The notes under the pieces are model-generated. The model ran no database searches, was not told where the DNA came from, and saw only the letters and a list, made by a program, of their open reading frames with translations. 50,680 nt of DNA from Ignavibacteria bacterium (lineage in GTDB: Bacteria > Bacteroidota > Ignavibacteria > Tepidaquicellales > Tepidaquicellaceae). The translations under genes were made by a program, and so were the position numbers. The stretch is taken from positions 17,616-68,295 of the forward strand of contig JABAQZ010000033.1 of assembly GCA_019187405.1 (NCBI GenBank). Reading direction: 5' to 3'. This document shows positions 9,797 to 23,298 of the stretch, in pieces; position 1 is the stretch's first letter, and the number at the start of each line of letters is the position of its first letter.

Positions 9797-10627
9797 CTAT
9801 CTCACCAGTATCATTCTCTTAACTTCAGAAAAAAATATTTCATTGTTATCAGAATCTTTAATCATGTTTCCGTTTAAATCGTAAGCGAATTGATCCTTAG
9901 TACCGGATACATTGTTAAGCTTGTTTGTTCCCGAGTTGTAAGCGTAAACAAAGTTGTCCTTTATTGTATTCGTATCTCCGTATCGCTTTAAAGTAGTGAT
10001 GTTGCCGTCTTTGTCATAAGTATTCTCGAGATGATATGTGTTGTCCTGTGTAATCTCATTGCTGACGTTCGTCAGACGGCTGCTTCTGTCATAACTATAT
10101 TTGAAAAACAATTCATCAGTATTTCTGAAGTTTTCCGCATACGAACCGTAAAAATACTGCAAGCTTACATTGCCGTTCTTACAGTATTCGTTTTCATAAA
10201 TTATCTGACTGATGCTGTTATACATTTGAGTTATCCAATTTCTGTTGTTATAAGCATAAGCATTGGTCAGAAATGTTCCGCCGTAATTCTGATTTTCAAT
10301 TAGTGAATTAGCATTATACTCGTAATTTGTAAAGTTTTTATATAGATAGCTTACATCCGTTCCTTCTTCTCCAAAATAATAATTCACCGTATCGAGCCGT
10401 CCTGCAAAATCATATCCGTAAATAAATCTTTTATAATCTATGCCTGTATTGTAATAAACATTTGTTATCTGATCCTGTGAATTGCATAAAGATCTTATTG
10501 TCATTTTTCCCGATAGGTTATAAAATTTATTTGTTTTAGAATAATTCTGTTGTGCATTTACAGACAATAATTGTAAAGGAAATATTATTATTGTTAAAAT
10601 ATATTTCAAAATATTGTATGAAAACAA
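9797..10627 (-). CDS. RHS core remnant with signal peptide, no toxin tip
   Basis: 276 residues and chimeric. Residues 1-25 are a signal peptide (ILTIIIFPLQLLSVNAQ) not shared with the large RHS protein. From about residue 50 (NSQDQITNVYYNTGIDYKR) it matches the YD-repeat region of the 17719-23298 protein. It ends abruptly, before the DPxG core-end motif, in FSEVKRMILVR. That ending resembles the last residues of a T9SS sorting domain (compare ETKRMVILK and VKKMILVK elsewhere in the window). No tip follows. This looks like a recombination product or decayed last cassette of the RHS array; whether it is expressed is unclear. Confidence 0.6.
   Translation of the reverse strand: MFSYNILKYILTIIIFPLQLLSVNAQQNYSKTNKFYNLSGKMTIRSLCNSQDQITNVYYNTGIDYKRFIYGYDFAGRLDTVNYYFGEEGTDVSYLYKNFTNYEYNANSLIENQNYGGTFLTNAYAYNNRNWITQMYNSISQIIYENEYCKNGNVSLQYFYGSYAENFRNTDELFFKYSYDRSSRLTNVSNEITQDNTYHLENTYDKDGNITTLKRYGDTNTIKDNFVYAYNSGTNKLNNVSGTKDQFAYDLNGNMIKDSDNNEIFFSEVKRMILVR
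10044..10243. repeat. RHS core repeat identical to 12574-12773
   Basis: 200 bp read as identical to 12574-12773 by direct line comparison; identity continues outward with single mismatches. It codes for YD-repeat core, so it marks recent exchange between the remnant and the hydrolase-tip cassette. Confidence 0.8.
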
Positions 10628-10705: not shown

Positions 10706-11053
10706 TCATAAGAGATCCTTGAATAGTTTAACATCGGAATAATGATTGAATATCATCATTGATATAATGAAAAGTATAAATGAAATTAAAATGTTTGAAT
10801 AGAATACTAATTTTAATAAAGTCTGTTTTTTTATAACCTTTCTAAAGAAAATTATAACAATGAAAAAGAAAACAAGGTATAAAATAAAATTTATTGTGGA
10901 AAACAATACCAATGTCCATAAGTTGGAAATACTTAAAATAAAACTTAAATCTAAAAGGCAAATATGAAATTTGTAAAATTCATTTATATAAGAAAAAACA
11001 AAATATATATTTATAACAAGAAACAGATTGCAAAAAATTTTTAATATTTTCAT
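10706..11053 (-). CDS. Small membrane protein, candidate immunity to hydrolase tip
   Basis: 115 residues with three likely membrane helices (about 5-23, 30-75 containing the second, and 85-110) and short polar ends. No family recognised. It lies 46 bp downstream of the alpha/beta-hydrolase RHS cassette on the same strand, the position where immunity genes sit in polymorphic toxin loci. A membrane location would suit protection against an enzyme attacking membrane lipids. The role rests on position and topology only. Confidence 0.55.
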   Translation of the reverse strand: MKILKIFCNLFLVINIYFVFSYINEFYKFHICLLDLSFILSISNLWTLVLFSTINFILYLVFFFIVIIFFRKVIKKQTLLKLVFYSNILISFILFIISMMIFNHYSDVKLFKDLL

Positions 11054-11099: not shown

Positions 11100-12896
11100 C
11101 TATTCAATTTTGTTAAAAATTATTCTTAATACATCGTTTAAAGTTTTTTCGTCAATTGATAAGTGATTCGAATTTTTTACTACTTTATTCCGAACTCTTG
11201 TTTTTGAACTTGTTGGTGTATTTATTGTACCCCTTGCACCAATTAGTGCGTCAGGAGCAAGTTGAAAATAATTAAAATTTTCTTTGGTGTTTTCTGGGAT
11301 TGTAAATCCTGAAGTTTCCGCTAAGCCCTCATAAGCATCTACCGTAAATAATAGATTTACTTTTATTCCATTATCATTTAAGTAGTTTGCAAGCTCAACA
11401 GCATTTGCACCACCCTGACTGTAACCATAAATGATAACTTCCTCATCCGGATTATCAAGATTATTAATTATAAAATCAGCTGCTTCAGTTATTTCATTTT
11501 TTGGTCCGAATAATCCTAAGGAAGAAAAATATCCTCTGATATCCAAATCCCTCTTTCCACTTTTATCTGCAAAAGTTTGAAGACCATATAGTAATCTTTC
11601 TGCGCCTACACTTGAGGTTGGAGAATAATCATTTGGGGATATTTCATTACCTGCATTGTAATATCCTGCTCCGCTTAATACAACGATTACATCTAAACCA
11701 TTAATGTCAATGAGTTTTAATGGATTATTCAAAGAATAATTGTAGGGACTTAATTGTGGATACTTATCCAGCAACGGCTCCATCTGTCCCCATCTCCCCA
11801 CCCTCGAATCATAATACCTCGACCCAAAATAATCATACTCGCTCTCCTTATCTCTCTCCTTCCCGGTAAATTTATACTTCGTAGAATCAGAATCAAATGT
11901 CCTCCCTTCAAGTAAATACCCCCATGCATCGTAATCCTGTGCAGATATTAGTTCCCCGTTATCATTTACTATTGCTCTCACTGATCCAAGAGGATCTTTG
12001 TAAAAATAATATCCAGTCGTTCCTCTTATTTTTCCTTCCATCCCGTTACCCTGCACATACCACTCGACAAGCGTCGTATCTTTATATGCTGCAAGCTCAT
12101 TCCCGGTTATTCCTCTCACATAAAATTCATTTTGATATAATACCCATCCGTTGCCGGGATTGGTGAGATTATTCCAGTCCAATATAGGTCCTGCATATTC
12201 ATTCGAGTTAGTGTAAATTAGTTTTCTGTTTCTATTGCCTGATTCATCCCGCCACGGCGGGCAGGCATAGAAGTATCTTGTTGCATATAATGTTACACGT
12301 GTCGGAGATGCTCCTTTTTTGTGATAAATTTCTGTAATTAAATTTCTGTAGTCATATTTAATATCATAATTTACATTCAGTTTATCATCAATCAAGTTTC
12401 CATTGTAGTCATAAGAAAACTGATCCTTCGAACCGTTTACATTATTCAGTTTGTTTGTTCCCGAGTTGTAAGCGTAAATAAAGTTGTCCTTTATTGTATT
12501 CGTATCTCCGTATCGTTTTAAAGTTGTAATGTTCCCGTCTTTGTCATAAGTATTCTCGAGATGATATGTGTTATCCTGTGTAATCTCATTGCTGACGTTC
12601 GTCAGACGGCTGCTTCTGTCATAACTATATTTGAAAAACAATTCATCAGTATTTCTGAAGTTTTCCGCATACGAACCGTAAAAATACTGCAAGCTTACAT
12701 TGCCGTTCTTACAGTATTCGTTTTCATAAATTATCTGACTGATGCTGTTATACATTTGAGTTATCCAATTTCTATTATTATAAATATATGCATTCGTAAA
12801 AAAAGACCAAAATAGTAATGATATTGACCAAATACTAAAATAATTATTTAGAAATTCCTTTTCCAGTTGAAGCATTACATTTTTTTTCGACTTCAT
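11100..12896 (-). CDS. Orphan RHS cassette with alpha/beta-hydrolase (lipase-like) tip
   Basis: 598 residues. Residues 1-40 are new sequence with a hydrophobic stretch; from NNRNWITQMYNS onward it follows the RHS core of the large protein up to the core end (YFGSRYYDSRVGRWGQMEP...NNPLKLIDINGLD, about residue 400). The variable tip (about 400-598) has a serine hydrolase nucleophile elbow GYSQGG with Ser493. Candidate triad partners are Asp520 (TVDAYEG) and His578 (NSNHLSID), in the right order for a class-3 lipase/alpha-beta hydrolase. A phospholipase-like toxin is inferred. An in-frame palindromic insertion adds CPPWRD within the core. No clean signal peptide, so export as encoded is doubtful; it may serve as a donor for the main gene. 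Confidence 0.8.
   Translation of the reverse strand: MKSKKNVMLQLEKEFLNNYFSIWSISLLFWSFFTNAYIYNNRNWITQMYNSISQIIYENEYCKNGNVSLQYFYGSYAENFRNTDELFFKYSYDRSSRLTNVSNEITQDNTYHLENTYDKDGNITTLKRYGDTNTIKDNFIYAYNSGTNKLNNVNGSKDQFSYDYNGNLIDDKLNVNYDIKYDYRNLITEIYHKKGASPTRVTLYATRYFYACPPWRDESGNRNRKLIYTNSNEYAGPILDWNNLTNPGNGWVLYQNEFYVRGITGNELAAYKDTTLVEWYVQGNGMEGKIRGTTGYYFYKDPLGSVRAIVNDNGELISAQDYDAWGYLLEGRTFDSDSTKYKFTGKERDKESEYDYFGSRYYDSRVGRWGQMEPLLDKYPQLSPYNYSLNNPLKLIDINGLDVIVVLSGAGYYNAGNEISPNDYSPTSSVGAERLLYGLQTFADKSGKRDLDIRGYFSSLGLFGPKNEITEAADFIINNLDNPDEEVIIYGYSQGGANAVELANYLNDNGIKVNLLFTVDAYEGLAETSGFTIPENTKENFNYFQLAPDALIGARGTINTPTSSKTRVRNKVVKNSNHLSIDEKTLNDVLRIIFNKIE
12244..12566. repeat. RHS core repeat identical to 16739-17061
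   Basis: 323 bp read as identical to 16739-17061, flanked by mismatches on both sides. It includes the GC-rich hairpin insertion at 12248-12261, so both cassettes inherited that insertion from one event. Confidence 0.85.
12246..12266. repeat. In-frame palindromic insertion in RHS core
   Basis: Relative to the 13785-15044 and 17719-23298 copies, the sequence has 18 extra bases containing CCCGCCACGGCGGG (stem CCCGCC/GGCGGG). It leaves the frame intact and adds six residues (ACPPWRD region). The same insertion is at 16741-16761. GC-rich and unlike the AT-rich host gene, it resembles a small palindromic element that enters coding sequence in frame. Confidence 0.7.
12841..12879. repeat. Cassette-boundary repeat with TTGAAGCATTACA
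   Basis: TTGAAGCATTACA occurs at 10666-10678, 12867-12879 and 13040-13052, each on the 5' side of an RHS segment. The first two also share ATTTAGAAATT about 12-13 bp earlier (10644 and 12847 onward); the second and third share CCTTT(T)CCA just before it. A shorter TTGAAGCATTA is at 3347-3357. It may be the edge of the duplicated unit. Confidence 0.5.
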
Positions 12897-13142: not shown

Positions 13143-13784
13143 TCATAAAACCCCATCATAGTAGTACCAATTTTCACCCAACGTTTTGTGCTCCTTTTTT
13201 CTTTCTAAATTTAGTTTCAAAATATTTTCTGAATATATAATGAAATATTTATCATCAATTCGAAAATAAATGGAATTCGCATCATAATCAAACCTTGAAA
13301 TAAAAGTTACATTGGATTGCTTCATTAACTGGAAAATTGAAATCATCTCCTCCTTACTTAAATTAATATCTGTTAGAGCTGAGTCTAGAGTAATTAATTC
13401 ATTATTTATGTTTAGAATTGATTTAACTTTATTTCCAAAAATTATCTTTCTTATTTCATTGATTTCATCATTAAAATTTCTTTTTAATTCAAATGAAATT
13501 TCAAGTTCTGTCTCATAATTTTCTATTTTATATTTGATTTCCTCTTCTTTCAATATTTTATAAATTATACCAAAGTAAGTTCTCCTATCTATAAAAGAAA
13601 TTTTATCTTTTTTATTAATCAAGTTTAATAAATTTTCTAGACTCGCTTTGGATTTTTTGAAATACTGTTCCTTGTTATCATTAAAAAAATTACACCCTGT
13701 TACTAAGTACGATAATAATATTGAGATAAAACATATTTTGTAATGAACAGCAATATTATTTTTATTTAGTTTGAGAAAAGTCAT
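13143..13784 (-). CDS. Lipoprotein, candidate immunity protein
   Basis: 213 residues. The N-terminus has a hydrophobic stretch ending in a lipobox (SYLVTGC, about residues 25-31), so a lipid-anchored envelope protein is predicted. The rest is rich in Lys, Asn and Glu and has no recognised domain. Its ATG follows the stop of the 13785-15044 RHS cassette with no gap, which implies translational coupling. A coupled lipoprotein behind a toxin tip fits immunity against an effector acting in the periplasm. The role is inferred; the membrane anchor is read from the sequence. Confidence 0.65.
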   Translation of the reverse strand: MTFLKLNKNNIAVHYKICFISILLSYLVTGCNFFNDNKEQYFKKSKASLENLLNLINKKDKISFIDRRTYFGIIYKILKEEEIKYKIENYETELEISFELKRNFNDEINEIRKIIFGNKVKSILNINNELITLDSALTDINLSKEEMISIFQLMKQSNVTFISRFDYDANSIYFRIDDKYFIIYSENILKLNLERKKEHKTLGENWYYYDGVL

Positions 13785-15044
13785 TTATCTAAAAGGTTGA
13801 GTTGAACGATTTTTGAAGTACAAAGAATTATAATTGAAATTAAAATACCCAATTGTGTATGCTTGAACTTCATTAAACTCATCTAATCTTTTGTTAGCTC
13901 CAATACTATATAAATGACCTGCAATATTAGCAATGTCTAAGTTTATTCCAAGCTTATTTATTGCTGCACCAAAAATTACATTTCCTGCTTCTTCATAATT
14001 CATTGCTATATTATTAAAAACGTACAATGAATATTTTTGGAGAAATCTTTTTTGATCTAATTTTCGTCCGCTTGGTCCCTCTTTTAATGCATATCTATAT
14101 CTATCCTTCAAATCAGACGGTGCACCGTCTAAAGCCTCTGATAATCTGTAAGAAAAACCTTCTTTGGTTATTAAGCTTTCCCAGTTAGCTACTACTCTAT
14201 CCCATCCTTTAAATTGCGTAACGGTTGCTTCACTAAGGGTTTCAAAATAATGATTTCCTTCATATTCAACATTTCCTGATTCACTCTGAACATAATATGT
14301 ATCCCCAAATAACCAATCAAAATCCCAAAACCCACTTTTTTTTCGATTAACCTCTTCTCCCTTTTTAAAATAAATATCATCAAGTCCATGAGGGTCAATT
14401 CTATTGATCGGATTATTACTTGTATAATGATATGGCGTTTTTGAAGGTTCATTACTCAAAAGCGGATCTACTCTTCCCCATCTCCCCAACCTAGAATCAT
14501 AATATCTCGCACCAAAATAATCATACTCACTCTCTTTATCTCTTTCCTTTTCTGTGAATTTGTATTTCGTAGAATCAGAATCAAAAATTCTATTCTGAAG
14601 CAAATACCCCCACCCGTCATAATCTTGTGCAGAAACTAACTCTCCGTTATCATTATAAACAGCTCTCACAGAACCCAAATGATCCTTGTAATAATAATAC
14701 CCGGTCGTTCCTTTTATTTTTCCTTCGATACCATTTCCCTGCACATACCATTCAACAAGTGTTGTATCTTTATATGTCGCAAGTTCATTACCATTTATTC
14801 CTCTTACATAAAATTCATTTTGATATAATACCCATCCGTTGCCGGGATTGCTTAAGTTATTCCAGTCTAAAACAGGTCCCGCAAATTCATTTGAGTTAGT
14901 GTATATTAGTTTTCTGTTTCTATTGCCTGCATCGTCATAGAAGTACCTTGTTGCAAATAATGTTACTCTTGCCGGCGATGCTCCTCTTTTGTGATAAATT
15001 TCTGTAATTAAATTTCTGTAGTCACAATTATATTTTGATATCAT
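13785..15044 (-). CDS. Orphan RHS cassette with unidentified tip (possible toxin-44-like)
   Basis: 419 residues. The first six or so are unique; from DYRNLITEIYHK it follows the RHS core to YFGARYYDSRLGRWGRVDPL...NNPINRIDPHG (about residue 217). The tip (218-419) is unlike the others. Its end, EEAGNVIFGAAINKLGI followed by an AGHLYS helix, recalls the 'bacterial toxin 44' pattern of polymorphic toxins, but the match is from memory and weak. No signal peptide. A block of 343 bp just before the tip is identical to the main RHS gene, which would make it a ready template for tip exchange. The partner is the coupled lipoprotein at 13143-13784. Confidence 0.75.
   Translation of the reverse strand: MISKYNCDYRNLITEIYHKRGASPARVTLFATRYFYDDAGNRNRKLIYTNSNEFAGPVLDWNNLSNPGNGWVLYQNEFYVRGINGNELATYKDTTLVEWYVQGNGIEGKIKGTTGYYYYKDHLGSVRAVYNDNGELVSAQDYDGWGYLLQNRIFDSDSTKYKFTEKERDKESEYDYFGARYYDSRLGRWGRVDPLLSNEPSKTPYHYTSNNPINRIDPHGLDDIYFKKGEEVNRKKSGFWDFDWLFGDTYYVQSESGNVEYEGNHYFETLSEATVTQFKGWDRVVANWESLITKEGFSYRLSEALDGAPSDLKDRYRYALKEGPSGRKLDQKRFLQKYSLYVFNNIAMNYEEAGNVIFGAAINKLGINLDIANIAGHLYSIGANKRLDEFNEVQAYTIGYFNFNYNSLYFKNRSTQPFR
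14516..14858. repeat. RHS core repeat identical to 18432-18774
   Basis: 343 bp read base by base as identical to 18432-18774 in the main RHS gene (constant offset 3916). Identity breaks exactly where the tip-proximal sequences diverge on one side and at a single substitution on the other. Confidence 0.9.
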
Positions 15045-15618: not shown

Positions 15619-16026
15619 TCAATATTTAACATTTAACAACATTGATCTATTTTTGAAAATGAAAGTATTAAAAAATCCTTTCATTCCCGAAGTTAAATCT
15701 ATACATCCTATTGAACCTGCTTCTTCCCCTCCATGGATTGAAAATCCACTTTTTCTTAGTGTTGGATTATCAGGTGTTGGATAAATATTTATGTACTCCA
15801 TTCCCCTGGATCTTTTTTGCATTTTCCAACTAATAATATCATATATACTTTTAGCATCTTTCTCATATGAGAATGCATTCTGCAGATCCACGCTCCACCA
15901 TCCTTCCGGAATTGGACCGACATTTTCTTCACTCTGTAAACTAGGTTGAGTTCTATCAAATTCATCTAATATACCTGATGCTGCTGCCCATCTCATAATT
16001 TCTCCACTCTCCATTAACCATTGCAA
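15619..16026 (-). CDS. Tlde1-like toxin tip severed from its RHS core by an in-frame stop
   Basis: 135 residues counted from the first ATG, but the frame is open from 16143 and is the same frame as the RHS fragment 16144-17208, interrupted only by TAA at 16144-16146. The translation parallels the tip of the main RHS protein: LQWLMESGEIM...DEFDRTQPS...GPIPEGWW...FSIHGGEEAGSIGCIDL. The HGG...S-x-GC pattern with upstream GPIPxGxW is that of Tlde1/DUF2778 L,D-transpeptidase-like enzymes acting on peptidoglycan. The ATG is probably not a true start; most likely a pseudogene half or silent donor. Confidence 0.7.
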   Translation of the reverse strand: MQWLMESGEIMRWAAASGILDEFDRTQPSLQSEENVGPIPEGWWSVDLQNAFSYEKDAKSIYDIISWKMQKRSRGMEYINIYPTPDNPTLRKSGFSIHGGEEAGSIGCIDLTSGMKGFFNTFIFKNRSMLLNVKY

Positions 16027-16143
16027 TTCACTTCCTTGGAAAAATAATAATTCTTTATATCCTTGAACATTTTCATAAATCTTATTCCCTTTTTCATCAT
16101 ACCCCCCTGTCCAAATATTTTTCCAAGGCTCGTTTTCAAAAAA

Positions 16144-17208
16144 TTACCAACTTGATTTTCCATTTTCCTCATACATTTGGTACCATTCTTCTCCGGTCGG
16201 ATCTATAATTCTCAATGGATTGTCAGCACAATAAATGTAGCTGCCCCAACCAAAACTACTTGCCGGGATCGGCTCTGAGGAATTGAAAATTCCAATTCTT
16301 GAATCGTAATTACGAGCATAAGAATAATCATACTCACTCTCTTTATCTCTTTCCTTTCCTGTGAATTTGTATTTCGAAGAATCAGAATCATAACTTCTAT
16401 TTTGAAGAAGATATCCCCACCCGTCATAATCCTGCGCCGAAACCAAATCACCATTATCACTCACGACAGCTCTCACTGATCCAAGATGATCTTTGTAATA
16501 ATAATACCCGGTCGTTCCTTTTATTTTTCCTTCGATACCATTTCCCTGCACATACCATTCAACAAGTGTTGTATCTTTATATGTCGCAAGTTCATTACCA
16601 TTTATTCCTCTTACATAAAATTCATTTTGAAATAATACCCATCCGTTTCCGGGATTGCTTAAGTTATTCCAGTCTAAGACAGGTCCTGCAAATTCATTCG
16701 AGTTAGTGTAAATTAGTTTTCTGTTTCTATTGCCTGCATCATCCCGCCACGGCGGGCAGGCATAGAAGTATCTTGTTGCATATAATGTTACACGTGTCGG
16801 AGATGCTCCTTTTTTGTGATAAATTTCTGTAATTAAATTTCTGTAGTCATATTTAATATCATAATTTACATTCAGTTTATCATCAATCAAGTTTCCATTG
16901 TAGTCATAAGAAAACTGATCCTTCGAACCGTTTACATTATTCAGTTTGTTTGTTCCCGAGTTGTAAGCGTAAATAAAGTTGTCCTTTATTGTATTCGTAT
17001 CTCCGTATCGTTTTAAAGTTGTAATGTTCCCGTCTTTGTCATAAGTATTCTCGAGATGATAAGTGTTATCCTGTGTGATTTCATTGCTGACGTTTATCAG
17101 GCGGTTGCTCATGTCATAATTGTATTTGAAAAAAAATTCATCAGTATTTCTGAAGTTTTTCGCATACGAGCCGTAAAAATACTGCGAGCTAACATTTCTA
17201 TTATTCAT
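16144..17208 (-). CDS. Orphan RHS core fragment, truncated before its tip
   Basis: 354 residues. It opens with MNNRNVSSQYFYGSY, which joins NNRN to a later point of the core (the main protein has about 23 more residues between), so an internal deletion formed this 5' end. It then follows the RHS core to NNPLRIIDPTGEEW and stops at TAA 16144-16146, where the main gene has a glutamate codon in the same context (KGNWEFFE versus KSSW-stop-FF). Its ATG (17206-17208) overlaps the TAA of the upstream membrane protein as TAATG, which could couple translation. It carries the CPPWRD palindromic insertion. No signal peptide. Confidence 0.65.
   Translation of the reverse strand: MNNRNVSSQYFYGSYAKNFRNTDEFFFKYNYDMSNRLINVSNEITQDNTYHLENTYDKDGNITTLKRYGDTNTIKDNFIYAYNSGTNKLNNVNGSKDQFSYDYNGNLIDDKLNVNYDIKYDYRNLITEIYHKKGASPTRVTLYATRYFYACPPWRDDAGNRNRKLIYTNSNEFAGPVLDWNNLSNPGNGWVLFQNEFYVRGINGNELATYKDTTLVEWYVQGNGIEGKIKGTTGYYYYKDHLGSVRAVVSDNGDLVSAQDYDGWGYLLQNRSYDSDSSKYKFTGKERDKESEYDYSYARNYDSRIGIFNSSEPIPASSFGWGSYIYCADNPLRIIDPTGEEWYQMYEENGKSSW
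16739..17061. repeat. RHS core repeat identical to 12244-12566
   Basis: Partner of the 323-bp identical block at 12244-12566 (offset 4495); includes the palindromic insertion at 16743-16756. Confidence 0.85.
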
Positions 17209-17718: not shown

Positions 17719-20700
17719 TTATTTGTAAGATGAATAAGTCACGTTTAACAACATTGATTTTCCATGAGATTTAAATTGAGAATAAAAATTACCCATACCC
17801 ATCATAAGATCTATACATCCTGCTGAACCTGGGAAAAGTCCACCATGTATTGCAAATCCCGAAACTCTATACGATCCGTTTTCTGGAGTTGGATATACAT
17901 TAATAAAGGCTTCCCCTTGTCCAGGGTATTTTCTAATCCAATTTGCAATATCCCAAGGAAGGATTGATTCTTGTAACGAAAAAGCATTACTAGGATCTAC
18001 AATCCACCATCCTTCGGGAATTGGACCGACATTTTCTTCACTCTGAATACTAGGTTGAGTTCTATCAAATTCATCTAATATACCTGACACTGCTGCCCAA
18101 CTCATAATTTCTCCACTTTCCATTAACCACTGCAATTCACTACCCTGAAAATATAATAATTCTTTATATCCTTGCTTCCACTCCATAACCTTATTGCCCT
18201 CTTGATCATATTTCCCAGTCCATATTTCTTTCCAAGCTTTATCTTCAAAAAACTCCCAATTTCCTTTTCCATCATCTCCATACATAAAATACCATTCTTC
18301 CCCGCTCGGATCAATTATCCTTAGAGGGTTATTAGCACAATAAACATAACTACTCCAGCCAAAACTGCTGCTTGGTACTGGTTCAGATGAATTGAAAATC
18401 CCGATCCTTGAATTGTAATTACGAGCATAAGAATAATCATACTCACTCTCTTTATCTCTTTCCTTTTCTGTGAATTTGTATTTCGTAGAATCAGAATCAA
18501 AAATTCTATTCTGAAGCAAATACCCCCACCCGTCATAATCTTGTGCAGAAACTAACTCTCCGTTATCATTATAAACAGCTCTCACAGAACCCAAATGATC
18601 CTTGTAATAATAATACCCGGTCGTTCCTTTTATTTTTCCTTCGATACCATTTCCCTGCACATACCATTCAACAAGTGTTGTATCTTTATATGTCGCAAGT
18701 TCATTACCATTTATTCCTCTTACATAAAATTCATTTTGATATAATACCCATCCGTTGCCGGGATTGCTTAAGTTGTTCCAGTCTAAAACAGGTCCTGCGC
18801 TTTCATTTAGATTTGTGTAAATTAACTTTCTGATTCTATTACCAGCTTCATCGTAGTAGTACCGGGTTGCATATAGAGTAACTCTCGTGGGAGATTTTCC
18901 TTCTTTGTGATATAATTCATTTATAAGATTCCTATGATCGTATTTTATATCATAATTTACATTCAGTTTATCATCAATCAAGTTTCCATTGTAGTCATAA
19001 GAAAACTGATCCTTCGAACCGTTTACATTATTCAGTTTGTTTGTTCCCTGATTGTATTCGTAAGTGAAGTTGTCTTTTATCGTATTCGTATCGCCGTATC
19101 TTTTTAATGTTGTGATGTTGCCGTCTTTGTCATAAGTATTCTCGAGATGATATGTGTTATCCTGTGTAATCTCATTGCTGACGTTCGTCAGGCGGCTGCT
19201 TCTGTCATAATTATAACTAAAATATATGTCATCGGTATTTTCAAAGTTGTCTTTATACGAGCCGTAAAAGTATTGCGACTTCACATTGCCGTTTTTGTAA
19301 TAATCGTTATCAAAAACAAACTGGCTTAAACTGTTGTATAGCTGTGTCACCCAATTTCGATTGTTATAAGTATATGCATTCGTCAGAAATGTTCCTCCGT
19401 AATTCTGATTTTCAATGAGTGAATTTGCATTATACTCGTAATTTGTAAAGTTTTTATAAAGAGAGCTTACGTCTGTTCCTTCCTCTCCAAAATAATAATT
19501 TACCGTATCGAGCCACCCGGCAAAATCATATCCGTAAATAAATCTTTTATAATCTATGCCTGTATTGTAATAAACATTTGTTATCTGATCCTGTGAATTG
19601 TATGTATAGATGATTGTTTTTGCCGGAAGTCCGCCAACCATGTTCCACATTTTTATCACGCGTCCTCTTTCGTCATATTTATAATATTTGAAATTCCATT
19701 CATCCGTGCTGCGGGTCCTGTATGCAGTCGAGACAAGATTTCCCTTTCCATAAACAGGCGGAGTATAATCAGCCGGAGCATTGAATAAATTATTTACAAT
19801 TGACGATGTAAGAGTATCATAAACATTTACAATCAGATATTCATCCGGTGCTGACGGCTGATACTGCGATTCATCGTTCGGACTGTCGGGCTGAAGAATT
19901 GCCTCGCCCGTTCCGGTCAGCCGGTTCATCCCGTCATAGTTTTTAAATGTGTATTTATTGATGTTTGCCAATCTCTGATTTTCGTCCTGAATAAAAATAA
20001 TGTTATTATTCTTATCATAAAAGTAATTTGTCTGACAGGCATCGGGCGTAATGCGCGCTGAATGTCTTCCGTAGCCGTCGTATGCATATAAGATTAGCTT
20101 TCCTTCGGGAGTTTTTACTTTTGTTAATCTGTAAAGACTGTCATATTTATAATCGGTGATCATTTCAATCTGCTGTTCGTCCGACGGCTCTTCATAAGCA
20201 TATTTTACTTCGCGGAGCAGATTTCCGACTGCGTCAAAGTATTTTTCAAAATGACTGCCTTCCTCATCCGTAAAATACTGCTTCTCGATGAATCCGGCGT
20301 AAGTTTGTCCGAAATAATTATCCAGCATATTCTGATATGAATAGTCGTTTAACGTGAAGCTGAGATCCGAATGTTTTGTTTTTATGAATCTGCCTAAAAC
20401 ATCATAGGAAAACATGGATGAATCTCCCGAAGGTTCAAAGTTTGCAGCCGGTTTGTTCATAAAGTTATGCCTGTAATGATATGCATTTGAGTCAGAAGTG
20501 CTTACAAAAATATCTTTCTCCTTAATATTGCCGAATCCATCAATAGCATATTTTATTCTTCCATAATCGCCTGATACGGTGTTTCTATAATTCAGTCTGC
20601 TGATTGTATTCATTACATCATCATAATTGTATTTAACCGTATATGCCGTATTACCGGAATTAAAATCTCCCGGAAGCATTACCGAACTTATTCTGTGAAG

Positions 20701-23298
20701 GTATTCATAATTTAACTGAATCAGAAATCTTGAAGCGTTTATTATTTTCAGCGGACTGCCGTCTGTGTCATAAGATCTGTATTCCGCAAAAAGCGTATCA
20801 TAGGAAGTTCCGTTGATTTTGTAGTTAACCGTCTTTACCGGGAATCTTCCATCCCATATATCATCGGATGATTCCGAAATTGTGTTATTGTTATACTTAA
20901 TCAGATATTTCAGCTCCGGATTCATCCCCGGAGTTTGCAAGACTTCCGAAGAAGACTGCGGAGTGTAAAAATATCCGGAAGCATGACCGTCGGGTTTTAT
21001 TATGCGCTTCGGATTGCCTTCCTTAAACGGATAAAAATCTTCCGTATATATTTCATTTCCGTAAAAATCATTTTTATAATATTCAAATTCAGTTAAAATA
21101 AATTCACCTGAATTATAATTATTATAAAGCTTTTCATTTAACAACTGTCCGTAATATCCTCTGCTGTCGGAAGCATTTTCTATAAAAATGTTTTCTTTAC
21201 GAGAAATAATCTCGGAGTTTTGGTTAAGTGCAAGCTCTTCTTTTGGAATATGAATTTTATAAAATACTGCAGTATCATTCGAGTTTGTGCTGCTTAATAC
21301 GCTGATTGAATTACTCATTCTCTTATGAATGAGACCTGTCATATAGAAATTCCGGTAGAGAATTTTCTTTTTGTTTAACAGCGGATCAGTTTCCTGAAAT
21401 CCCGTCAGTAAGCTGTCAAAATTCGTATTCCCGTCTTTGTACTGATATTCATAATTCCAGCTCCTTTGCACAGACTGCCTTAGGTTAATCTTTTTCAGCA
21501 TAAGAAAAGATCCATTAAAAGAGCTGTCTGCTTGTATAAATCCTTTTTCGTAAGTGTATTTGTTTATGTCAATGTTAATTTGATTTCCGGCTGGCGAATA
21601 CAATGAATCCAAAATCAGTTTTGTAATTCCCTGAATATCAGGTACTTCAAGATAATTGTTATTCCGGTTATAAACAGGATAGTTTCTGTACTCGCTGTAA
21701 CTTCTAATTTCGTTTGCTGAATTATTAACCGAAGCATCATCAAGTGAAAAAACAGAAATCAGTGTTGAATATAAATCAGACGAGTCAATTTTATCTTCAT
21801 TCGGATTATTATCAATATAGTCGTAATAATATGTCGATAATGATTTAGCTTTTGAATTGATGGTGTCGGTTTTAGTTCCTATCATATTTGTGTAAAACGG
21901 ATCTCTTCCGTAACCCCGGTAATAGACATAGCTGCTTCGCAGTCTTGAATTTATCTGGCTTAATGAATTTACTTCAAGATTTGATGTGGAATTCGGTCCT
22001 ATATTGTAATTATATGAATTGCTGCCGTTAAAATAATTTTTAAAATAAATTATTCTTTTAAGATTATTAAAAATAAGATTAAACAAATTTCCGTTGTTAA
22101 TCTGAACCACCTGTACATTCCTGATTGTTCTTCCGTAATTTTCATTTAGAATTTCAATTTTCCGGTTATGCGGATTAGTAATCGTGTTTATATATGCTTT
22201 CTGATTTCCCGTCTGGCTGAAGGATACAGGAGTTCGGCTGTAATTTAGTATGTAATTCCCTTCCGAAGAGGTTTCGCTTTGTATTCCTATGCCGCTTGCC
22301 GTAGGAATAAATTTTACCTTTATGATTTTATCTGAATACCCATCAGCTGTGATAGAATCTATGAAAGGTCTTCCTTTTCCGAAAAAATCCGTTGATGAAG
22401 TGCTTTGAGTATGATGCCACAGCTTAATGCTGTGACCAAAGTAATCTTTAATTTCTTCCAGAAGAAGCATCATAGGTTTTCTTCTTGCATTTACAATCGC
22501 AAGCGTGTCAAAATCATAAAAATTTCTCTTGTATTCCCTGAATACAAATTCGGTTCCGTCGCCTTTTAACAACTTAACAACCCTTTTCCGGTAGCCGTTT
22601 GATCCTGATTCATAAAAATTAACTTTTGCCCTGTAATAGAGTTCTTTACCTTCATATATGTAATCACCTTCATAAGAATTTGGATTCTTATTTACCAATG
22701 AGATTACAGATCCGTCTCCAGCTAAAATCAGGAATCTGTTATAAGGATTTGCGCCGTCTGCCGGCAGCAGTGTTCCGTCAAAATGATAACCCGGTATCAG
22801 TGATTTAATATTGTTTCCCCAAATCTGATTGCTGTCAGCCTGGTTTGTAAAGAAGCTTGATTCATAATTAAGAGTTTGGATTGCAATTCCATTCAGATTA
22901 ATAATCCATTCCGGACTGTTATGGTTGAATCTTTCAAATGCTCCGGCATTATACAAAGCAGTATTTCCAATAAATACCTGATGTCCGACTGAGCCGTTAT
23001 AATTTAGCGAAAGATCAAAATTCAGATCACCGGCAAGAGGAAAACTATACAAAGGTATTTCATAAATCAGATTACCGCTGAAATTATTAATTATTTCCTG
23101 TTCGTTAAACCCTGAATTATTTGATTTATAATAACCTCTTTCGTTAAACATATTTGCAATATCTGTCAACCCGTTTGACGGAGATTCATAGGCAGAATCA
23201 ATTCCTTCAGAGATGTAATAATTTTCAGCACAATCAGATTTGTCCGGATACATAAAGAATAAAATCAGCAAAAGTACTTTTAGAAGTGAAGTTTTCAT
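17719..23298 (-). CDS. Full-length secreted RHS polymorphic toxin with Tlde1-like tip
   Basis: 1859 residues. A Sec signal peptide (LLKVLLLILFFMYPDKSDCA, about 1-23) precedes a long N-terminal region beginning with the SGNLIYEIPLYSFPL segment typical of RHS/SpvB-like proteins. YD repeats (for example YKYDSLYRLTKVKTPEGK, NTYDKDGNITTLKRY) run from roughly 900 to 1640, and the core ends at NNPLRIIDPSG (about 1663). The tip (1664-1859) has GPIPEGWW and FAIHGGLFPGSAGCIDL with His1818 and Cys1828, the Tlde1/DUF2778 L,D-transpeptidase-like pattern. No PAAR, no T6SS adaptor and no T9SS tail are visible. It is the only intact, exportable RHS gene here and the likely recipient of tips from the cassettes downstream. 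Confidence 0.9.
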   Translation of the reverse strand: MKTSLLKVLLLILFFMYPDKSDCAENYYISEGIDSAYESPSNGLTDIANMFNERGYYKSNNSGFNEQEIINNFSGNLIYEIPLYSFPLAGDLNFDLSLNYNGSVGHQVFIGNTALYNAGAFERFNHNSPEWIINLNGIAIQTLNYESSFFTNQADSNQIWGNNIKSLIPGYHFDGTLLPADGANPYNRFLILAGDGSVISLVNKNPNSYEGDYIYEGKELYYRAKVNFYESGSNGYRKRVVKLLKGDGTEFVFREYKRNFYDFDTLAIVNARRKPMMLLLEEIKDYFGHSIKLWHHTQSTSSTDFFGKGRPFIDSITADGYSDKIIKVKFIPTASGIGIQSETSSEGNYILNYSRTPVSFSQTGNQKAYINTITNPHNRKIEILNENYGRTIRNVQVVQINNGNLFNLIFNNLKRIIYFKNYFNGSNSYNYNIGPNSTSNLEVNSLSQINSRLRSSYVYYRGYGRDPFYTNMIGTKTDTINSKAKSLSTYYYDYIDNNPNEDKIDSSDLYSTLISVFSLDDASVNNSANEIRSYSEYRNYPVYNRNNNYLEVPDIQGITKLILDSLYSPAGNQINIDINKYTYEKGFIQADSSFNGSFLMLKKINLRQSVQRSWNYEYQYKDGNTNFDSLLTGFQETDPLLNKKKILYRNFYMTGLIHKRMSNSISVLSSTNSNDTAVFYKIHIPKEELALNQNSEIISRKENIFIENASDSRGYYGQLLNEKLYNNYNSGEFILTEFEYYKNDFYGNEIYTEDFYPFKEGNPKRIIKPDGHASGYFYTPQSSSEVLQTPGMNPELKYLIKYNNNTISESSDDIWDGRFPVKTVNYKINGTSYDTLFAEYRSYDTDGSPLKIINASRFLIQLNYEYLHRISSVMLPGDFNSGNTAYTVKYNYDDVMNTISRLNYRNTVSGDYGRIKYAIDGFGNIKEKDIFVSTSDSNAYHYRHNFMNKPAANFEPSGDSSMFSYDVLGRFIKTKHSDLSFTLNDYSYQNMLDNYFGQTYAGFIEKQYFTDEEGSHFEKYFDAVGNLLREVKYAYEEPSDEQQIEMITDYKYDSLYRLTKVKTPEGKLILYAYDGYGRHSARITPDACQTNYFYDKNNNIIFIQDENQRLANINKYTFKNYDGMNRLTGTGEAILQPDSPNDESQYQPSAPDEYLIVNVYDTLTSSIVNNLFNAPADYTPPVYGKGNLVSTAYRTRSTDEWNFKYYKYDERGRVIKMWNMVGGLPAKTIIYTYNSQDQITNVYYNTGIDYKRFIYGYDFAGWLDTVNYYFGEEGTDVSSLYKNFTNYEYNANSLIENQNYGGTFLTNAYTYNNRNWVTQLYNSLSQFVFDNDYYKNGNVKSQYFYGSYKDNFENTDDIYFSYNYDRSSRLTNVSNEITQDNTYHLENTYDKDGNITTLKRYGDTNTIKDNFTYEYNQGTNKLNNVNGSKDQFSYDYNGNLIDDKLNVNYDIKYDHRNLINELYHKEGKSPTRVTLYATRYYYDEAGNRIRKLIYTNLNESAGPVLDWNNLSNPGNGWVLYQNEFYVRGINGNELATYKDTTLVEWYVQGNGIEGKIKGTTGYYYYKDHLGSVRAVYNDNGELVSAQDYDGWGYLLQNRIFDSDSTKYKFTEKERDKESEYDYSYARNYNSRIGIFNSSEPVPSSSFGWSSYVYCANNPLRIIDPSGEEWYFMYGDDGKGNWEFFEDKAWKEIWTGKYDQEGNKVMEWKQGYKELLYFQGSELQWLMESGEIMSWAAVSGILDEFDRTQPSIQSEENVGPIPEGWWIVDPSNAFSLQESILPWDIANWIRKYPGQGEAFINVYPTPENGSYRVSGFAIHGGLFPGSAGCIDLMMGMGNFYSQFKSHGKSMLLNVTYSSYK
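18432..18774. repeat. RHS core repeat identical to 14516-14858
   Basis: Partner of the 343-bp identical block in the 13785-15044 cassette. It lies immediately before the region where the main gene's tip begins to differ. Confidence 0.9.

Follow-up and report, generated by a model that had tools for sequence, protein, structure and literature searches.

The in-frame TAA codon that interrupts an orphan Rhs cassette in the window (the whole 50,680-nucleotide stretch of Ignavibacteria-type DNA analysed here) is very probably a recent decay event in a displaced toxin/immunity module, itself part of a silent, recombining array. As an orphan that lies behind an intact main gene and has neither the N-terminus nor an export signal, this module (cassette 2) would be silent as a delivered toxin, stop or not. 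Homologous recombination between core remnants and the main gene would shuffle core segments along the array, and by precedent tips as well, while the TAA would be a recent loss-of-function lesion in an unused copy, not yet joined by other lesions nor overwritten by conversion.

An array of Rhs modules behind an intact main gene

The source genome (3.78 Mb in 38 contigs, 98% complete) is the only member of its genus, g1, in the collections searched, and the sole named relative of its main Rhs protein found by a scan of genome contigs is a distant Ignavibacteriae MAG. The main gene (17719..23298; this and all features below lie on the minus strand) encodes an Rhs/YD-repeat protein of 1859 residues with a hydrophobic, signal-peptide-like N-terminus, a match to TIGR03696 (1.1e-12) and an intact Tlde1-like tip. 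It is followed by P0002 (17208..17711), a 167-residue protein with about five transmembrane (TM) segments that is the immunity candidate of the main tip. Behind these, a unit composed of core remnant, tip and immunity candidate is repeated three times and ends in one fragment, with the start point of the core remnant differing from cassette to cassette, as expected from separate displacement events.

Cassette 2, the first of these units (15619-17208, 530 codons), carries a core remnant that runs to and includes the stop (16144..17208), is homologous to the main core from 17196 with 83% DNA identity and matches TIGR03696 (8.8e-14). A DPTG motif precedes the Tlde1-like tip, whose open frame after the stop spans 15619..16143. 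The immunity candidate was said to be intact, and it is: P0003 (15118..15609), a protein of 163 residues with about five TM segments that is related to P0002, starts 9 bp downstream of the cassette. Cassette 3 (13785..15044) combines a core remnant with an unrelated tip, and cassette 4 (11100..12896) a core remnant with a thioesterase/lipase-like tip named from a weak Pfam match; both are intact. Their immunity candidates, at 13143..13784 and at 10706..11053 (about four TM segments), were assigned by position. Cassette 5 (9797..10627), a core fragment devoid of a tip, closes the array. Since small proteins with three to six TM segments also stand directly behind the tip in its relatives, we infer, by association only, that the multi-TM neighbours are immunity proteins.

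Cassette 2 lacks the N-terminal part and the signal peptide, yet the ATG of its open reading frame overlaps the stop codon of P0002 (TAATG), such that some degree of translation of the cassette is possible. Promoter (88 versus 79 in shuffled sequence) and terminator (6 versus 5.6) counts were close to the shuffled expectation and thus give no evidence on transcription of the cassettes, and an Rfam scan returned tRNA only. Elsewhere, a second Rhs core (L028:15043-19901, G000:C31), with 95% identity over 4.48 kb, is interrupted at RGIN, where its contig ends; the interrupting sequence is related to tandem repeats of 135-142 bp, which occur near Rhs loci on contigs C3 and C38 as well.

An in-frame stop codon at the start of the cassette 2 tip

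The TAA described in the earlier note is present at 16144..16146, where the translation reads GKSSW*FFENEPW. As had been claimed, the main gene has Glu at this position (it reads GKGNWEFFEDKAW, with GAG in place of TAA), and the frame is open on both sides of the stop, with 354 codons before and 174 after it and no frameshift relative to the main gene. The two tips are about 63-64% identical (E 3e-85), a homology across the stop that is far beyond chance. The claim that the stop separates the core from the tip holds for the stop itself and not for its place at the border, because it lies inside the start of the tip, 15 residues past the DPTG motif. The column that it occupies, as judged from the aligned sequences, is not conserved, with E in the main gene and T, H and T in relatives.

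Could the TAA be a sequencing or assembly error, given that the genome has several copies that resemble one another? With 38 contigs and another Rhs copy at a contig end, repeats evidently troubled the assembly. However, TAA and GAG differ at two bases, and the surrounding stretch is only about 70% identical to the main gene, so that a mix-up of copies would not create the stop; moreover, the frame is otherwise kept and lesions of the same class occur in other genomes (see below). We therefore regard an error as improbable.

The tip after the stop resembles an L,D-transpeptidase toxin

On its own, the part of the cassette 2 tip after the stop gives weak Pfam matches to Tlde1 (0.007) and YkuD (0.005), below the curated cut-offs. 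A profile of the tip family had Tlde1a as its sole significant match among PDB sequences (E=1.9e-5), and a model of the main tip built from seven sequences (pLDDT 80) likewise had Tlde1a as top Foldseek match (8.4e-5), with other L,D-transpeptidases ranking lower. Superposed on the Tlde1a structure 7uo8, the main tip model scored Z=12.6 over 131 residues at 2.9 A. A model of the cassette 2 part after the stop (five sequences, pLDDT 57) was too poor to use and its fold search was meaningless; the fold assignment for this tip thus rests on its identity to the modelled main tip, and on that footing the cassette 2 tip is predicted to have a Tlde1-like L,D-transpeptidase fold.

The earlier note had taken both tip and motif to be intact. 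No further stop interrupts the tip, and the catalytic-type His, Ser and Cys are kept in cassette 2, as is the Gly of the motif; all four residues are invariant in all seven members of the tip family. The motif of Tlde1a, H...(S/T)HGC (PMC9638812), is nonetheless incomplete, as the His before GC, two residues ahead of the Cys, is replaced by A, I, K or R in seven of seven members. The tip therefore resembles Tlde1a and the Tox-LD-peptidase toxins, a catalogued, RHS-associated toxin domain with H, S and C (Zhang et al., 2012; PMC3482391), in its fold and in the conserved active-site His, Ser and Cys, and differs from Tlde1a in the replaced His, in its fusion to an Rhs core and in its multi-TM neighbours. 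Across 46 tip columns that are invariant in three outgroup tips, cassette 2 keeps 40 and the main gene 38.

An intact part after the stop could also be used as a separate small protein, made by re-initiation or readthrough. Starting from an in-frame TTG at 16026, which an ATG follows closely, translation would yield a product of 135 residues that keeps the motif. The AGGA-like bases before this TTG encode tip residues common to the main gene and thus do not indicate a ribosome site, the product would have neither Rhs shell nor export, and no separate gene of this kind is seen in relatives whose frame is intact. We consider such use extremely unlikely.

Identical tracts point to recombination within the array

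Identity among the copies is patchy. The main gene and cassette 3 share 343 identical bp (18774-18432 and 14858-14516) that end near the core/tip border, cassettes 2 and 4 are identical over 323 bp (17061-16739 and 12566-12244), cassettes 4 and 5 over 200 bp, and the main gene and cassette 2 have identical runs of 138 bp and 102 bp. The longest identical run of each pair exceeded all 2000 permutations (p<0.0005), a result that conserved stretches could inflate because the permutation treats mismatches as independent along the sequence. Nevertheless, the runs of 343 and 323 bp are identical even at silent sites and lie beside stretches of 70-80% identity, which is hard to explain without recombination. 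From these sequences, we conclude that cassette 2 has in the past recombined with the main gene and with cassette 4. The tracts thus support the idea of a tip store put forward in the earlier note: segments of the core appear to have been shuffled by homologous recombination, and by analogy tips would be exchanged in the same way. Within the tract shared by cassettes 2 and 4, and in these two cassettes only, there is a palindrome-like, GC-rich in-frame insert of 18 bp (GCCTGCCCGCCGTGGCGGG; 16743-16761 and 12248-12266) that adds the six residues ACPPWR; the genome holds two copies of it.

These exchanges bear on the proposal of a maintained lock, in which the stop keeps the toxin off in the cassette until recombination downstream of the codon hands an active tip over to the main gene. 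In its favour, the tip past the stop is intact, TAATG coupling could allow translation of the cassette, and the linker that follows the stop is better matched between the main and cassette 2 tips (80-93% identity, with a longest identical run of 39 bp) than the sequence around the stop (68-75%), so exchange could take place there. Against a lock, the main gene would receive the stop together with the tip if the crossover fell in the core, the cassette product would have no export signal, and an enzyme that acts on peptidoglycan would presumably find no substrate in the cytosol. Furthermore, intact orphans that lack the N-terminus and the export signal need no stop for silence. Most other orphans indeed have full-length tips with no stop at this place, and no relative of the tip has one: the tip relatives in five genomes (G007, G363, G141, G264 and G449) are free of it, and the scan of genome contigs found no relative of the tip. 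A maintained lock is accordingly very unlikely. We give somewhat more credit, though still little, to a role of the interrupted cassette as a donor, in which the related linker past the stop would let the catalytic part and the immunity gene reach the main gene and leave the stop behind.

Lesions are scattered among orphan cassettes of other genomes

We surveyed 63 core/tip junctions from 17 genomes, 51 of them in orphans and 12 in main-type genes. Shortened tips were found in six of the 51 orphans and in none of the 12 main-type genes, an excess that is based on small numbers and is not significant (Fisher p=0.59), and the other 45 orphan tips are not cut short. The first stops in the shortened tips lie at 9 (cassette 2), 33, 52, 74, 91 and 115 residues and are scattered (KS p=0.21); in the other orphans none falls at the core/tip border, and the stops in cores lie elsewhere. 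Core remnants contain six nonsense codons in five orphans, with another in L031, and the density of nonsense codons or early stops is alike in the two parts (6 in 8283 core codons, 6 in 9837 tip codons).

The lesion could be shown in four of the six shortened tips (cassette 2, L035, L039 and L033), while L101 and L106 were not tied to an intact homologous tip. In L035:4431-5651 (G007:C22), whose tip is related to that of cassette 4, an in-frame TGA lies just past a GYSTG elbow, with the tip open on either side of it and homology kept in frame, whereas the tips of L039 and L033 are frameshifted. The tip of L039 (L039:1805, G001:C112) is metallopeptidase-like (HEIGHSFGLPH), and its counterpart in another species, L037:4374 (G016:C61), is intact and 97% identical after the break. 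These scattered lesions in orphans of relatives agree with simple decay, the other reading offered in the earlier note. The survey also showed that 56 Rhs tips of many unrelated kinds have a mean length of 193.5 residues (sd 13.7), at loci such as L033, L037, L038 and L041, a uniformity that the volume of the Rhs shell may impose.

The stop is probably young

Between the main gene and cassette 2, dN/dS is 0.12 before the stop and 0.31 after it, and synonymous divergence is high (dS about 1 to the main tip), from which it follows that most of this divergence arose under constraint. Past the stop the tip shows no other sign of decay, with neither a second stop nor a frameshift and no loss of its own at the 40 columns that it has in common with all three outgroups, so the lesion is probably young. 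In a simulation of neutral drift, such intactness had a probability of 0.055 after 12 substitutions and of 0.01 after 20, a rough bound only, since the columns on which it is conditioned were selected for being kept in the cassette. If the cassette has been neutral since the stop arose, the stop is thus probably young relative to the split of the main and cassette 2 tips, with at most about 12 neutral substitutions since. Three points weigh against decay: a maintained cassette would likewise be expected to keep the remainder of its tip intact, orphans do not carry significantly more lesions than main-type genes, and the overlapping ATG may allow some translation of the cassette. Decay of a silent module is still the reading that we strongly favour.

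Discussion

The array is of a kind already known, that of Rhs orphan modules, and this Ignavibacteria-type case is an added member. As in the rhs orphans of Salmonella LT2 (Koskiniemi et al., 2014; PMC3967940), a core fragment, a tip behind a DPxG motif and an immunity gene, here a candidate, lie downstream of a full-length gene with which the core is shared. The present array differs in its length (three modules and a fragment), in its Ignavibacteria-type genome and in the in-frame stop inside one tip; recombination is here deduced from identical tracts. In Salmonella, the orphan toxins have no signals for translation start or export, and they come into use once they have recombined with the main gene (PMC3967940). 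The cassettes described here would be silent and the stop would be decay, and tips would enter the main gene in the way known from Salmonella. The MafB loci of Neisseria (Jamet et al., 2015; PMC4287609) likewise line up alternative C-terminal toxin cassettes and immunity genes behind a single full-length toxin gene, and some of these cassettes are silent. By contrast, the MafB scaffold is unrelated, and the silent MafB cassettes are marked by a missing start codon, not by a stop inside the tip.

The locus offers a clear multi-copy Rhs tip array outside the Proteobacteria, in which recombination between active and silent copies is legible from identical tracts, and a survey of relatives allows decayed orphans to be counted. 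Were the interrupted cassette a donor after all, orphans that bear nonsense codons would be sources for tip remodelling and no dead ends. Stops in orphan tips otherwise look like ordinary wear, which calls for caution against reading each of them as regulation.
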